A stretch of DNA of 64,000 nt from Meloidogyne chitwoodi (taxonomy: Eukaryota > Nematoda > Chromadorea > Rhabditida > Meloidogynidae), in the NCBI GenBank assembly GCA_015183035.1, contig JACZZP010000001.1:62001-126000 (forward strand), written 5' to 3'. The notes beneath the pieces are model-generated. The model searched no databases. It was not told the origin of the DNA and saw only the letters and a program-made list of their open reading frames with translations. Positions within the stretch are counted from its first letter, which is position 1, and each line of letters opens with the position of its first letter. Positions 34,174-39,891 of the stretch are shown in pieces. A program made the position numbers and the translations under genes.

Positions 34174-36491
34174 TTAAAATTCTTTTTTTGTTAGGTTCAT
34201 TTTTAACTAAAAATATTTAAAGTATAAACAGGAAACTCACAAATGGAAAAGAATTAAAAGGTAAAACAGCAGACAAAGAATGAGAACTATCGCAATGATT
34301 ATGAGCTTGAGATACCTTTGAATTATCTGACAAATTTTCTTGTACCACACGAGAATAGACATCAAGCCATTCCTGAAAGATCTGTGCTTAAATTCGGCTG
34401 AAACTAACCTGATGGTAATTTGAAATAAAACGGATTCCTTTTAATCCACTTTCATAATGCAAAAGCGACGGCTTTTGTTTACCAAGAAAACGAACAATTT
34501 TAATCTGAGATGCAAAACTACAAGAGGAATTCAAACTAATTTAAATTGGAACAAAAATAACCGTTTTAAAGCAGCCACATAAGCATAAATTGCACCAGTG
34601 GTAACATTATATGTAAAAGGAAGTCGGTGCTCAGGATCCCATTCACGCCATCCACTGCAATTGAAAATAATAGACAACATTACAACAAAATCATACCTAA
34701 AGTATTCATTCAAAAGTCCATGATCGCCACCATCAAATGAGCCATGTGTCAAAGCAAATTGTAGCAAATTTTTGTAAGTTTCCAGAGATGGCACATAAAC
34801 AAAAACACCTAAAGAGATATGAGAGCAGTTGTAAAAATATATACCAGTATTAAAGAAGTCGGGCCATCCAATATCCGGAGCAGCAGAAAATTCAGGTCTC
34901 TCAAAAAGTTCGTCGCAATTTTTAACGACCTTTTTAATTGATTTTATTTTTAAACTAAAAACACAAAAATTACAAAAGTATTCGCATCCAGAAAAACACA
35001 TTTGTTATACATAGTAAGTTTCCAACAGTGCATCTTACTTAGGGTGTCCCATAAGTTCTGCACGTTGGTACGCCATTTTGCGTACAGTAGTCCAATTTTT
35101 ACAAGTGATATACCAAATTAAAGTTCTAACTGTGCACTACAAGATGACCGAAGCACTTTTCCCAATTTTCATTTCTGGCAGAGATATAGCGGATATCCGG
35201 GATATACCAAACTTCCTTAATCCGGATATATGTCAAAAAAAATTTTTAATTTTTTTTAAATTTATATTAAAATTCTGCGTATTTTTATGAATAGAATGCA
35301 AAAAAAATCCACAAAAAATTATGAATTTGAGTCGAGTTATGATTTTTTGAAACTTTACTGCTTTTTACCCTAAATTTAAAAAAAAAATTGAAATTTTTTT
35401 TATTATATATAAATGTTAGCTCATTTGAAAGAGCTCGTTGAGATGAGTTGATTAAGAGCAAAATTAATAAATTTGGTTGAATTTTAACAGCGCTGGAAAA
35501 ACTGTAATCATTTATGATAAGCTTTGTCCTTTGAGTATAACTTTGTTTAAATTTTTTTAAATCGAGCTGATTTGCTCTTAATCAACTCATCTCAACGAGC
35601 TCTTTCAAATGAGCTAACATTTATATATAATAAAAAAAATTTCAATTTTTTTTTAAATTTAGGGTAAAAAGCAGTAAAGTTTCAAAAAATCATAACTCGA
35701 CTCAAATTCATAATTTTTTGTGGATTTTTTTGCATTCTATTCATAAAAATACGCAGAATTTTAATATAAATTTAAAAAAAATTAAAAAATTTTTTTGACA
35801 TATATCCGGATTAAGGAAGTTTGGTATATCCCGGATATCCGCTATATCTCTGCCAGAAATGAAAATTGGGAAAAGTGCTTCGGTCATCTTGTAGTGCACA
35901 GTTAGAACTTTAATTTGGTATATCACTTGTAAAAATTGGACTACTGTACGCAAAATGGCGTACCAACGTGCAGAACTTATGGGACACCCTAAGTAGTAAA
36001 TGTGCTTCCGAGATCCGGACGGCCAATTAAGTCTAGGTTAGCTTCATGTCCGATGTCCAGCACATTTACCTGTTTTAGATATGAATTAAATTGCAAAATT
36101 AGGGCTGTTTTTAAAAGGTTGTTTTAATTGAAAACAACGAACTTCAGTAGCATTGTCGAAGACCTCCTTCAATTTGTTTCTAAAAAATAAACGGTATAAT
36201 TGTAAAGGCATAATAATACTCGTGATTTGAATTTTAAAGTACTAATTTTAAGATAATAACATAATTTAATAGAACGGAAAGGATAATCTAATATTGTTCT
36301 TGAGAAGGTATTCATATACTTCCTAAAAATTGTAAAAAAAACCTAAGATTAAGAGAGACTCCAGAAGTGTAAAGAACATGAAGCTTGTGACACGTGGCAA
36401 CATTGCGAAGAGAATAGGCTAATACAAGAGCCCCAACAGCGTATCCGTCAGTAGTAGCCAATGTGACCCAAGCAGTGTCTTCCGAAACCAT
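34174..36491 (-). pseudogene. gyg-1: Glycogenin gene interrupted by a transposable element
   Basis: Glycogenin (GT8) primes glycogen synthesis by glucosylating itself. The start MVSEDTAWVTLATTDGYAVG matches the family, and the next blocks are [78 protein letters not shown] and LPFTYNVTTGAIYAY (with the acceptor tyrosine). A 956-bp palindromic element (35038-35993) splits the exon between GSTFT and KMHCW and supplies an immediate in-frame TAG. The DxD motif reads DAN instead of DAD, and the usual His of VxHFLG is Arg (IVRFLG). The C-terminal glycogen-synthase-binding region is not evident; the last small exon ends NLTKKEF. Other alleles or copies may be intact. Confidence 0.85.
35038..35993. 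mobile_element. 956-bp palindromic element with TA target duplication
   Basis: The ends CTTAGGGTGTCCCATAAG and CTTATGGGACACCCTAAG are perfect inverted repeats, flanked by TA on both sides. The arms (about 35038-35462 and 35571-35993, some 425 bp each) are nearly identical in inverted orientation around a loop of about 110 bp. TA duplication and these ends fit the Tc1/mariner superfamily; no transposase is present. Each arm has the same 70-residue frame starting [13 protein letters not shown], with no recognised domain. Removing the element and one TA restores an uninterrupted glycogenin exon. Confidence 0.93.
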
Positions 36492-37134: not shown

Positions 37135-39891
37135 TTAAACATGTTGACTCTTTTCCCGTCCAAGTAAAAATTCAGCAACACCAATATAATAAACCATTTG
37201 TGCAATACCAAAAAGTGGAGCCATTACCATCATTCGACAACCAGCACCTTTGAAAAAAGCGCGAGGGCCTTCGTTTTTTATAATTTTTCTTTAAAAAAAT
37301 TTTTTTTTTAAACTATTTGATAAATATTAAACCTAAATGCATCCAATATTCCTTTATATTGGGGAGAATTAGTTGAGGATTTTTCAATTAGTTGTATCCG
37401 TGTTTTGATTACCTAAATATATATATAAATTTCAAATTTTAAAAATAAAATCATACATCTAAAGGTGTTACTGAAAAAGAAGCTATAGCACCTGATACAA
37501 TACCAGCTAGAAAAGAAGCATAAAAAACGGCATCTCCACTTCCATGTGCTTTTCTTGGGCCCTTAAAATTTTTATTAAAAAAAAATTTTTTTTAATTAAA
37601 GCTTACAAGTGCATCTAATGCAGCAAAAAGTGGAAAATACATAACAGAAAACGTTACATCCCTAGCCATTGTTGGTGCTAGACCTCGATAAAGTCCGAAT
37701 ATTCCATTTTCTTTTATTAGATTTAATGCCAATTTTGTTGCTGAAACTTTACTGGAAGAACTGGCTTCTAAAAATTAAAAAGGATTTAATTTAAAAATGG
37801 TGACTCTAATGATTGTTATAAATAAATTAGGCGCGAAATAGTATATTATATTAAAAAATTAGAGATAAAGAGGAAGTTAAATACTAGTTGATGGCCGCGA
37901 CTATTCGGACGAATAAGAGTCAATATGAAAGAACGGACATTAGAGTATAAACATATTAATTAACGCAATAAATTTTTAAAACGCAACACCCCAAAATGTT
38001 ATAAATTGCGCACAGTAAATGCCTTATTACTCATTCACTCGCCACACCCCTTTCTCTTTTGTTCTCTTTTTTTAAATTATTCTACAACATTCTAGAATGT
38101 TCCACAACCTTCTTTTCTTTCAAAACAACTGGTAAAAATAAATTCTTTTTTAATCTTGTTAATTCGAGAAAGTTCTAGAACAATCCACATATCCACCCAT
38201 TCGCCCATATAAATATGCCTAAAAATAAGCAGTTCAATAATTCCAAAAACGACAAACTACTTCCAAACCAAAACTCTCTTTAATCTAACAAATATTAAAA
38301 ATGCCATTCTCTGTTATTGACCCATTCTTTTGGCCTGTAAGTGCTGAGCCTCATTCTTCTCGAAAATTGTGTTCTTCATCATTGCGTTCAAATCGACATG
38401 ATGACAATAATGACTTTTGGAATGTTCCAAAAACAATTTCAATTTATTGGCCTACATTAAATGGGGCACTTGAAAGTATTTATAATAATGAAGATGATCG
38501 TCAAATGTAAGTTATCTTGTTTTTTAATTTTTAATTAAAATTTTTTTAAGTCGTGATTTGGAACGCAAATTATCTTCTTCTTTTGGTATATTTGGCAACA
38601 ACAATGATCAATCTGAAGACAATTCTTCGTTTAAATTTACTTGTGATGCTTCTGATTACCAACCTGGAGAAATTTATATCAAAATTGAAGGTGAAGAATT
38701 AGTAATTACTGGAGAACATAAAAAAGAAGACAAACATCAATCTGTTCATCGTTCATTTACTAGACGCGTTTCATTACCAAAAACAATCAAAAAAGAAACT
38801 ATTGAGTGCAATGTTGATTCAAAAGGACGTTTAAATGTTGTAGCTGAATTAATTAAACCAAAAGAAGAAAAACCAAAAACTATCAAAATTCCAATAAAAT
38901 TTGTTGGAGATAGATCAATTGAAATTGAGAAGACGAAAGAAGCAGCAACAACTAATTTGGGTGAAGAAAAAACGAAAGAAGACAACAAAGAAGTTAATAA
39001 GAAGGAAGAAGAGAAGAAAAAGTAAGAGAAATTTTTGAAAGAAATTAAGGTTTTTTGACTTATTTTTCGTAAATTTTTGAATTTTCATATGGCTTTGTAT
39101 TTTAATTGAAAGTAAATTTTTTAAATTAAGTCTTTCTTAATAATATTCAAAAAACACCCAAAAAGAGGTAAAACCAGTAACCCAATTCACAAAAAAAATT
39201 TAAAAAAATCCAAAAAATTAACTAACGTTGTAATTGTATTTTGAGTAATTCCATAGGAGTAGTTACTATAATTTGACAAAATCCAGCTGCTCCACCTGCA
39301 AGCATTCCTTTAGGAATTGAAAGTTTTCTGAATTATAAATTTTTTTTAACATTTATAAAAAAAACAAACTTTTCATTTGGAGATGCCAATTTATATCTGA
39401 AAAAGTCATTTGCAACCAATTTTATTGCCTTTTCAGGTGTTATTAATAATATATTTACACCAGAGCCAGAATATAAGGAACGAACTTTGCTTTAATAAAA
39501 TAAAGATTAAACCACTTAACCAAAAGGAAGTTAAATAAACTTTAATAAAACCTGTATACATTTGGGCCACCATTCCTCCACGTTTGACGTCCACAATCCA
39601 GACTAAATTTTTTCAAATTAAATTTTTTTTTAAATTCTTCTCTTACATTCCTTGATATTGAACTCTTCCATCTGTCAAAACTTTTTGATTTTGTAAACGA
39701 GTTTTAATTAAATCTATAGGAAATACACAAGTAACGCCAACAATTCCTGCAATTCCACCGTTGATTATTTTTGGTAAATAACTTTAAAAACAAAATAAAA
39801 AAACTTTTCTTCAATAAAATAAAATAAAAAACCTAAATTTCTGCTGTTGTTGTTGTCCACGTAATTCAGCAGCTGAAACTGTTATTGACAT
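37135..39891 (-). CDS. SLC25A22: Mitochondrial carrier, glutamate-carrier type (SLC25A22/A18-like)
   Basis: An inner-membrane carrier expected to move glutamate with a proton. Three carrier repeats are readable. The first has [13 protein letters not shown] and [19 protein letters not shown]; the second has [15 protein letters not shown] and [20 protein letters not shown]; the third has [15 protein letters not shown] and [20 protein letters not shown]. It ends REKSQHV. Each carries the PX[DE]XX[KR] signature. The order of motifs follows C. elegans SLC-25A18 proteins. A 1.46-kb intron (about 37770-39228) between MELLKIQLQ and ASSSSKVSA holds a small heat-shock gene on the opposite strand; the carrier frame joins in phase across it (CAA). 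Start [13 protein letters not shown]. Confidence 0.93.
37829..37898. mobile_element. GGCGC-family element, degraded copy 3
   Basis: The sequence reads TTAGGCGCGAAATAGTAT, then AATTAGAGATAAAGAGGAAG, then ACTAGTTGATGGCCGCG. It shares the core of copies at 28620, 36719 and 42404, but the right arm has lost ACTACTTGCGCC. It lies in the carrier intron, upstream of the heat-shock promoter. Confidence 0.55.
38090..38102 (+). promoter_or_regulatory. Heat-shock element (distal)
   Basis: TTCTAGAATGTTC gives three alternating pentamers (TTCnnGAAnnTTC), the binding pattern of HSF trimers. It lies about 210 bp upstream of the small heat-shock protein start. Confidence 0.85.
38163..38180 (+). promoter_or_regulatory. 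Heat-shock element (proximal)
   Basis: TTCGAGAAAGTTCTAGAA is four perfect alternating nTTCn/nGAAn units, about 28 bp upstream of the TATA box. Confidence 0.9.
38208..38215 (+). promoter_or_regulatory. TATA box of the small heat-shock gene
   Basis: TATAAATA lies 93 bp upstream of the ATG and just downstream of the proximal heat-shock element, the usual hsp-16-type arrangement. Confidence 0.8.
38301..39025 (+). CDS. Small heat-shock protein (HSP20/alpha-crystallin)
   Basis: A holdase chaperone that keeps unfolding proteins soluble. Two exons (38301-38506 and 38551-39025) join through GTAAGT...TTTAAG. The N-terminal part is Ser/Asn-rich. The alpha-crystallin domain shows [47 protein letters not shown] and the beta-strand region [15 protein letters not shown]. 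The C-terminal extension contains KTIKIPIKF, which carries an I-x-I motif, and ends in a Glu/Lys-rich tail (NKKEEEKKK). Two strong heat-shock elements and a TATA box precede it. The whole gene sits antisense inside an intron of the mitochondrial carrier gene. Confidence 0.95.

Follow-up and report, generated by a model that had tools for sequence, protein, structure and literature searches.

Within the window, by which we mean the whole stretch of 64,000 nucleotides of Meloidogyne chitwoodi DNA that was analysed (C1:62001-126000), a glycogenin gene on the minus strand, here called copy A, is interrupted in its third coding exon by a palindromic element of 956 bp (Table 1). The exon borders of this gene, like those of a second glycogenin gene elsewhere on the contig (copy B), were set by eye. 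Other features of the window, likewise recognised by eye, are an open reading frame resembling a small heat-shock (HSP20-like) protein (38528-39025) and the mitochondrial-carrier-like exons that flank it (37135-37774 and 39222-39783). At its very start (L025:1-861), contig C1 contains a possibly subtelomeric tandem repeat whose period is ~168 bp.

Table 1. Features of glycogenin copy A and of the inserted element, in window coordinates
Feature	Position	Strand	Basis or remark
Glycogenin copy A, exon 1	36343..36491	-	Comparison with copy B, by eye
Glycogenin copy A, exon 2	36143..36179	-	Comparison with copy B, by eye
Glycogenin copy A, exon 3, 5' part, one TA included	35994..36069	-	Comparison with copy B, by eye
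Target-site duplication TA, right	35994..35995	.	
Non-autonomous palindromic mariner-type element	35038..35993	.	956 bp; ends, arms and three further copies
Right Mcmar1-like inverted repeat	35652..35993	-	Inner limit approximate
Element centre	35386..35650	.	Match to a dispersed, partly palindromic repeat; mostly without Mcmar1 match
Left Mcmar1-like inverted repeat	35038..35380	+	Inner limit approximate; identity to Mcmar1 repeat
Target-site duplication TA, left	35036..35037	.	
Glycogenin copy A, exon 3, 3' part past the element	34974..35035	-	Comparison with copy B, by eye
Glycogenin copy A, exon 4	34845..34929	-	By eye
Glycogenin copy A, exon 5	34697..34808	-	By eye
Glycogenin copy A, exon 6	34562..34654	-	By eye
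Glycogenin copy A, exon 7	34409..34517	-	By eye
Glycogenin copy A, last recognisable exon	34217..34372	-	By eye

Anatomy of the element and its insertion site

The ends and flanks of the element are as the first-pass annotation had described them, namely a palindrome bordered by TA on both sides and followed on the coding strand by an immediate stop: The minus strand reads TTT ACT ACT TAG across the junction, the TAG being bases 3-5 of the element. In the third coding exon, the frame of copy A is thereby closed after 88 codons by a stop within the element. When the flanks are joined and one TA is removed, they encode T-F-T-K-M-H-C-W, which aligns with the glycogenin block T-K-L-H-C-W; the Met of copy A in this block is Leu in 17 of the 18 aligned homologues. 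The glycogenin frame is open across the joined flanks, which bears out the earlier assignment of the site to a coding exon and not to an intron.

The two arms of the element are inverted repeats of each other. Their outermost block spans 282 nt with the TA counted (98%), and the repeat goes on inwards with single-base shifts to ~425 nt per arm of the 956; an arm-versus-arm alignment of 432 columns contains 5 mismatches and 4 gap columns. Inverted repeats make up most of the 956-bp element, which gives it its foldback-like character. As a single strand it is predicted to fold into one long stem with a minimum free energy (MFE) of -705.1 kcal/mol, far beyond chance (mean of 20 shuffles -168.6 kcal/mol, 0 of 20 as low), the apical ~100 nt of the predicted stem being imperfectly paired. 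Open reading frames inside the element, counted from stop to stop, are at most 98 aa long, and none of the matches of a transposase search in the nematode's own assembly represents transposase coding within it.

The element family and its mariner relatives

A search of the assembly (47,477,280 bp in 30 contigs), for which the first-pass annotation had called, yielded three more full-length copies at other sites, C26:1903443-1904396, C26:2433272-2434227 and C28:2494536-2495490, which are 99.2-99.5% identical to the window copy. In this whole-element search the best 40 of 84 candidates were scored, so that repeat counts are lower bounds; a search with the inverted repeat, in which 10 of 10 candidates were scored, lists the same four full copies. 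Comparison of 900 bp on each side of the four element sites revealed no similarity between their flanks. Clean TA/TA flanks surround the window copy and the copy at C26:2433272; for the remaining two, flanking TAs emerge only on the assumption that a terminal base is missing. These one-base end losses (L012 and L014, two of the four copies) lie at opposite ends relative to the loop. Recency of the insertion, as claimed earlier, is upheld by the comparison with the three other copies; the similarity of the arms, from which it had been argued, does not date the insertion.

The outer parts of the element match the inverted repeats of Mcmar1, reportedly the DD34D mariner of Meloidogyne chitwoodi from Leroy et al. 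2003, with 86-92% identity over about 312-379 bp; for the left arm, identity to the Mcmar1 repeat is 92% over ~314 bp and 87% over ~378 bp. Mcmar1 is present in the assembly at C28:457585, C28:479827 and C30:963163. All three copies are identical over 2000 bp, possess perfect 355-bp inverted repeats and are flanked by TA, each at a site of its own; their uninterrupted transposase ORF encodes 340 aa, with 100% identity to the M. chitwoodi protein Q869A8. The presence of three identical 2000-bp copies at different sites suggests that Mcmar1 moved very recently. Its 355-bp inverted repeats are printed in PMC3169594, and PMC3158080 terms its transposase active, referring to Renault et al. 2010 for recombination in vitro. 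With its shared ends, Mcmar1 is a plausible candidate for the autonomous partner that had been sought. A second mariner on C5 (L034:1805-3082) encodes an uninterrupted 342-aa transposase, 58% identical to that of Mcmar1, and was rejected as partner: Its ~31-bp inverted repeats are unlike those of the element. The transposase search also yields an uninterrupted frame at C25:1071118 with 25% identity; the comparison of partners by end repeats covered some of the transposase matches, with this frame left out.

The centre of the element corresponds to a dispersed repeat with at least 85 matches in both orientations, the four element copies counted (best 40 of 102 candidates). Among the matches listed, longer relatives of the centre on C25, C8 and C4 are 71-75% identical to it, and three of the inspected places with a centre match (L016, L036, L044) are themselves palindromic over 336-367 bp at ~70%. 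We rejected a purely Mcmar1-derived element that had arisen by internal deletion, as the mid-part is without Mcmar1 match and matches this dispersed, partly palindromic family instead. The centre motif also occurs in another dispersed repeat (L037-L041, L043), of which six sequences were aligned; most of them have ends resembling GGGAGCAGTTCAACTGAGT, and at several sites the repeat is nearly identical. A degraded relative on C12, near 1913404-1913561, comprises pieces of both the outer parts and the centre at ~85%, which suggests that the composite element may be older than its four young copies.

A sister of Mcmar1, now extinct or not sampled, could have moved the element in place of Mcmar1 itself, and to this reading we assign an appreciable minority chance. 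The repeats of the element and of Mcmar1 diverge by 8-14%, yet each element's own arms agree closely; the terminal bases read CTTAGGG in the element versus CTAGGG in Mcmar1, and the degraded C12 relative suggests an old family. Against such a sister, however, nothing in the assembly matches the repeats (10 of 10 candidates scored) apart from the four element copies, Mcmar1 and some short scraps, and over the outermost ~100 bp the element and the Mcmar1 repeats are nearly alike, with few differing positions. On the simplest account, the element would have been cut and pasted in trans by the Mcmar1 transposase.

Glycogenin copies A and B

The eight glycogenin exon matches listed for the whole assembly all fall at two places on C1. 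Copy B is located at C1:27936-28888 on the strand opposite to copy A, with DNA similarity reaching 29295, and the similar stretches of the two copies are 66.9 kb apart. Copy B is uninterrupted and reads ACC AAG at the homologous point, without the TA that was used in copy A. In a self-comparison of C1:1-126000 (matches of at least 150 bp, E up to 1e-20), the similarity between A and B is confined to the gene, with 83-90% DNA identity. A large inverted or haplotypic duplication near the window start was rejected on the same comparison, which contains the glycogenin gene in two inverted copies and no long mirrored arm. Between A and B, Ka is 0.044 and Ks 0.23, and the introns contain 83 mismatches in 410 positions; by this measure, Ka/Ks shows both copies as mostly constrained after the duplication. 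Copy B is, judged by its sequence, a good glycogenin: It has a GT8 domain, its best PDB relatives are GYG2 and GYG1 (E about 1e-83), and its closest named homologues come from Meloidogyne. Copy B itself departs at 2 of 91 homologue-invariant columns (Q96M, which is also found in A, and L103M).

Invariant columns were counted among those in which at least 16 of 18 homologues, chosen by hand from 120 listed, have a residue. Copy A differs at 6 of the 89 columns that are invariant in homologues and copy B, namely by S68I, D70H, D106N, Q166H, H214R and W222S, and at each of these positions 18 of 18 homologues have one and the same residue. In the DxD motif, copy A reads DAN, having lost the second Asp of DAD, which is D in all 18 homologues and in copy B. 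According to the alignment offset, residues 106 and 214 correspond, in our own numbering, to Asp104 and His212 of GYG1, and we take the DxD Asp (106) and His214 to be metal-binding residues; a search of open-access papers for the metal ligands of glycogenin gave Tyr195 but no metal ligands. The number of departures alone is no proof of lost function because distant homologues also depart: When each homologue was left out in turn, 15 of the 18 departed at 0-2 near-invariant columns, and the three distant ones from Ascaris (P0167), Trichinella (P0188) and C. elegans (P0211) at 7, 12 and 5, respectively. The identities of the changed residues argue more strongly than their count for a putative loss of function in copy A. 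Missing from copy A, moreover, is the DYLGxDSFDNI-type end that is present in Meloidogyne homologues. The C-terminus of glycogenin binds glycogen synthase. When the last 43 residues of a Meloidogyne homologue were searched against the assembly, up to E 10, matches occurred at C1:29385-29543 only, next to copy B; no C-terminal exons were found for copy A. Within the nine exon pieces of copy A, as bordered by eye, no further stops or frameshifts were found, and all seven introns compared with copy B have GT-AG borders.

Glycogenin might still be made from copy A if the element acted as a new, introner-like intron that is spliced out, a reading that we consider very improbable. An AG does precede the TA at the right element end, and five listed donor-acceptor choices keep the downstream frame. 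Exact excision, however, would require the borders TA-AG, AC-GT or CT-TA, none of which is GT-AG, and only two of the five listed choices use a GT donor. The enumeration took GT or GC donors from the first base of exon 3 onwards, combined them with AG acceptors as far as the 3' border of the second part of that exon, and listed products with their first stop at residue 270 or later. The five products so obtained have 270-283 aa, compared with 292 aa for the joined product, with residues of exon 3 changed or dropped, so that precise splicing was rejected: No enumerated product (first stop at residue 270 or later) restores the protein. Copy A would in any case be without its C-terminal exons and with changed active-site residues. 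An assembly artefact, in which the palindrome was misjoined into the exon, is hardly credible: Long palindromes are awkward to sequence, but the TA duplication is clean, the exon resumes exactly on either side, and three further copies have the same anatomy with different flanks.

Order of events and comparison with known systems

To place the insertion relative to the changes in copy A, we used the four element copies as a clock. Over its 956 bp, the window copy differs from the other three by 1 private substitution and 2 private indels of a single base. Copy A would, at this rate, have gained 0.7 nonsynonymous changes since the insertion, or 3.3 at the 95% upper bound. For the 29 columns at which A and B differ, four close homologues (three named as Meloidogyne, and P0123) decided by simple majority: 13 columns were assigned to A and 6 to B, a terminal gap column among the latter, with 10 left unassigned. 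At some of these columns the homologues contain a residue found in neither copy, and the poorly covered C-terminal stretch holds two of the 13. The 13 amino-acid changes of copy A have a P of 4e-5 under the 95% upper bound of the rate, and the 11 that remain without these two columns a P of 6e-4. The six invariant-site changes alone are not decisive, as their dating depends on the yardstick (at the upper bound, P 0.0007 counting those codons and 0.12 counting all nonsynonymous sites). Since one private substitution stands against 13 changes, most of the changes in copy A probably predate the insertion. Any homogenisation among the copies of the element would weaken this clock, as they would then appear younger than they are.

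With a probability of roughly 0.85, the locus represents a foldback-like non-autonomous mariner that was moved by Mcmar1 or a close relative into a TA of a glycogenin duplicate. The element combines a pair of long Mcmar1-like inverted repeats with a different palindromic repeat, one copy of which forms its centre; the transposase of Mcmar1, or of a close relative, would have cut and pasted it in trans into the TA in the third coding exon of copy A, whose frame ends after 88 codons. The implied reading that a working glycogenin was knocked out is supported in part: A coding exon is interrupted by a transposon, but the host gene is a 3'-truncated, altered duplicate with an uninterrupted paralogue, which does not support its having been a working gene. 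The event is best seen as an insertion into an already degenerate-looking duplicate and not as a functional glycogenin being lost recently. We infer that copy A was already no working enzyme when it was hit and that the insertion probably mattered little to the worm. The low Ka/Ks speaks against a plain dead-gene account, as it shows copy A to have been constrained for much of its existence; with no other stop or frameshift and with its GT-AG introns kept, it may have been in use until recently. A long shot is that transcription through the palindrome would produce a ~430-bp double-stranded hairpin RNA with arms similar to the Mcmar1 inverted repeats, from which small RNAs might restrain Mcmar1; Mu killer of maize, an inverted duplication, is said to silence its parent transposon.

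A TA duplication, shared repeats and the lack of its own transposase place the element, as a new representative, among the non-autonomous (MITE-type) elements of the known Tc1/mariner group. A description of the 956-bp element was not found in the open-access papers that were covered in part, which is weak evidence of absence. M. chitwoodi harbours three intact, identical Mcmar1 copies together with a young four-copy palindromic family, one copy of which sits in a coding exon; the species is a natural setting for asking whether a mariner still jumps and how a genome copes with long inverted repeats. The locus also illustrates that a striking insertion, even one in a well-known gene, may have come late, in a duplicate already decaying.

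Among known systems, the glycogenins GYG1 and GYG2 (GT8) are resembled by copy B, which matches the solved structures and has a C-terminal match downstream; copy A is unlike them in being without a C-terminal match and in having changed residues in the DxD, GDQG and VHFLG blocks. The Tm1 Mutator/Foldback elements of root-knot nematodes resemble the element in their foldback-like anatomy and occur in the same genus, but, according to PMC3169594, duplicate 9 bp of their target and have a transposase of the Mutator type, in contrast to the TA found here; the same paper likens Mcmar to foldback elements. The rearranged mariner MITEs of Drosophila are likewise non-autonomous mariner derivatives with long inverted repeats, and those with unusually long repeats have, according to PMC4161770, their 3' part replaced by the 5' part. 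Unlike them, the parent type here already has 355-bp repeats, and the centre stems from another repeat family. With Mcmar1, finally, the element has in common long inverted repeats of the Mcmar1 type, the TA duplication and the genome, and it differs in being without transposase, in repeats that are 86-92% identical and in a centre that comes from a different repeat.
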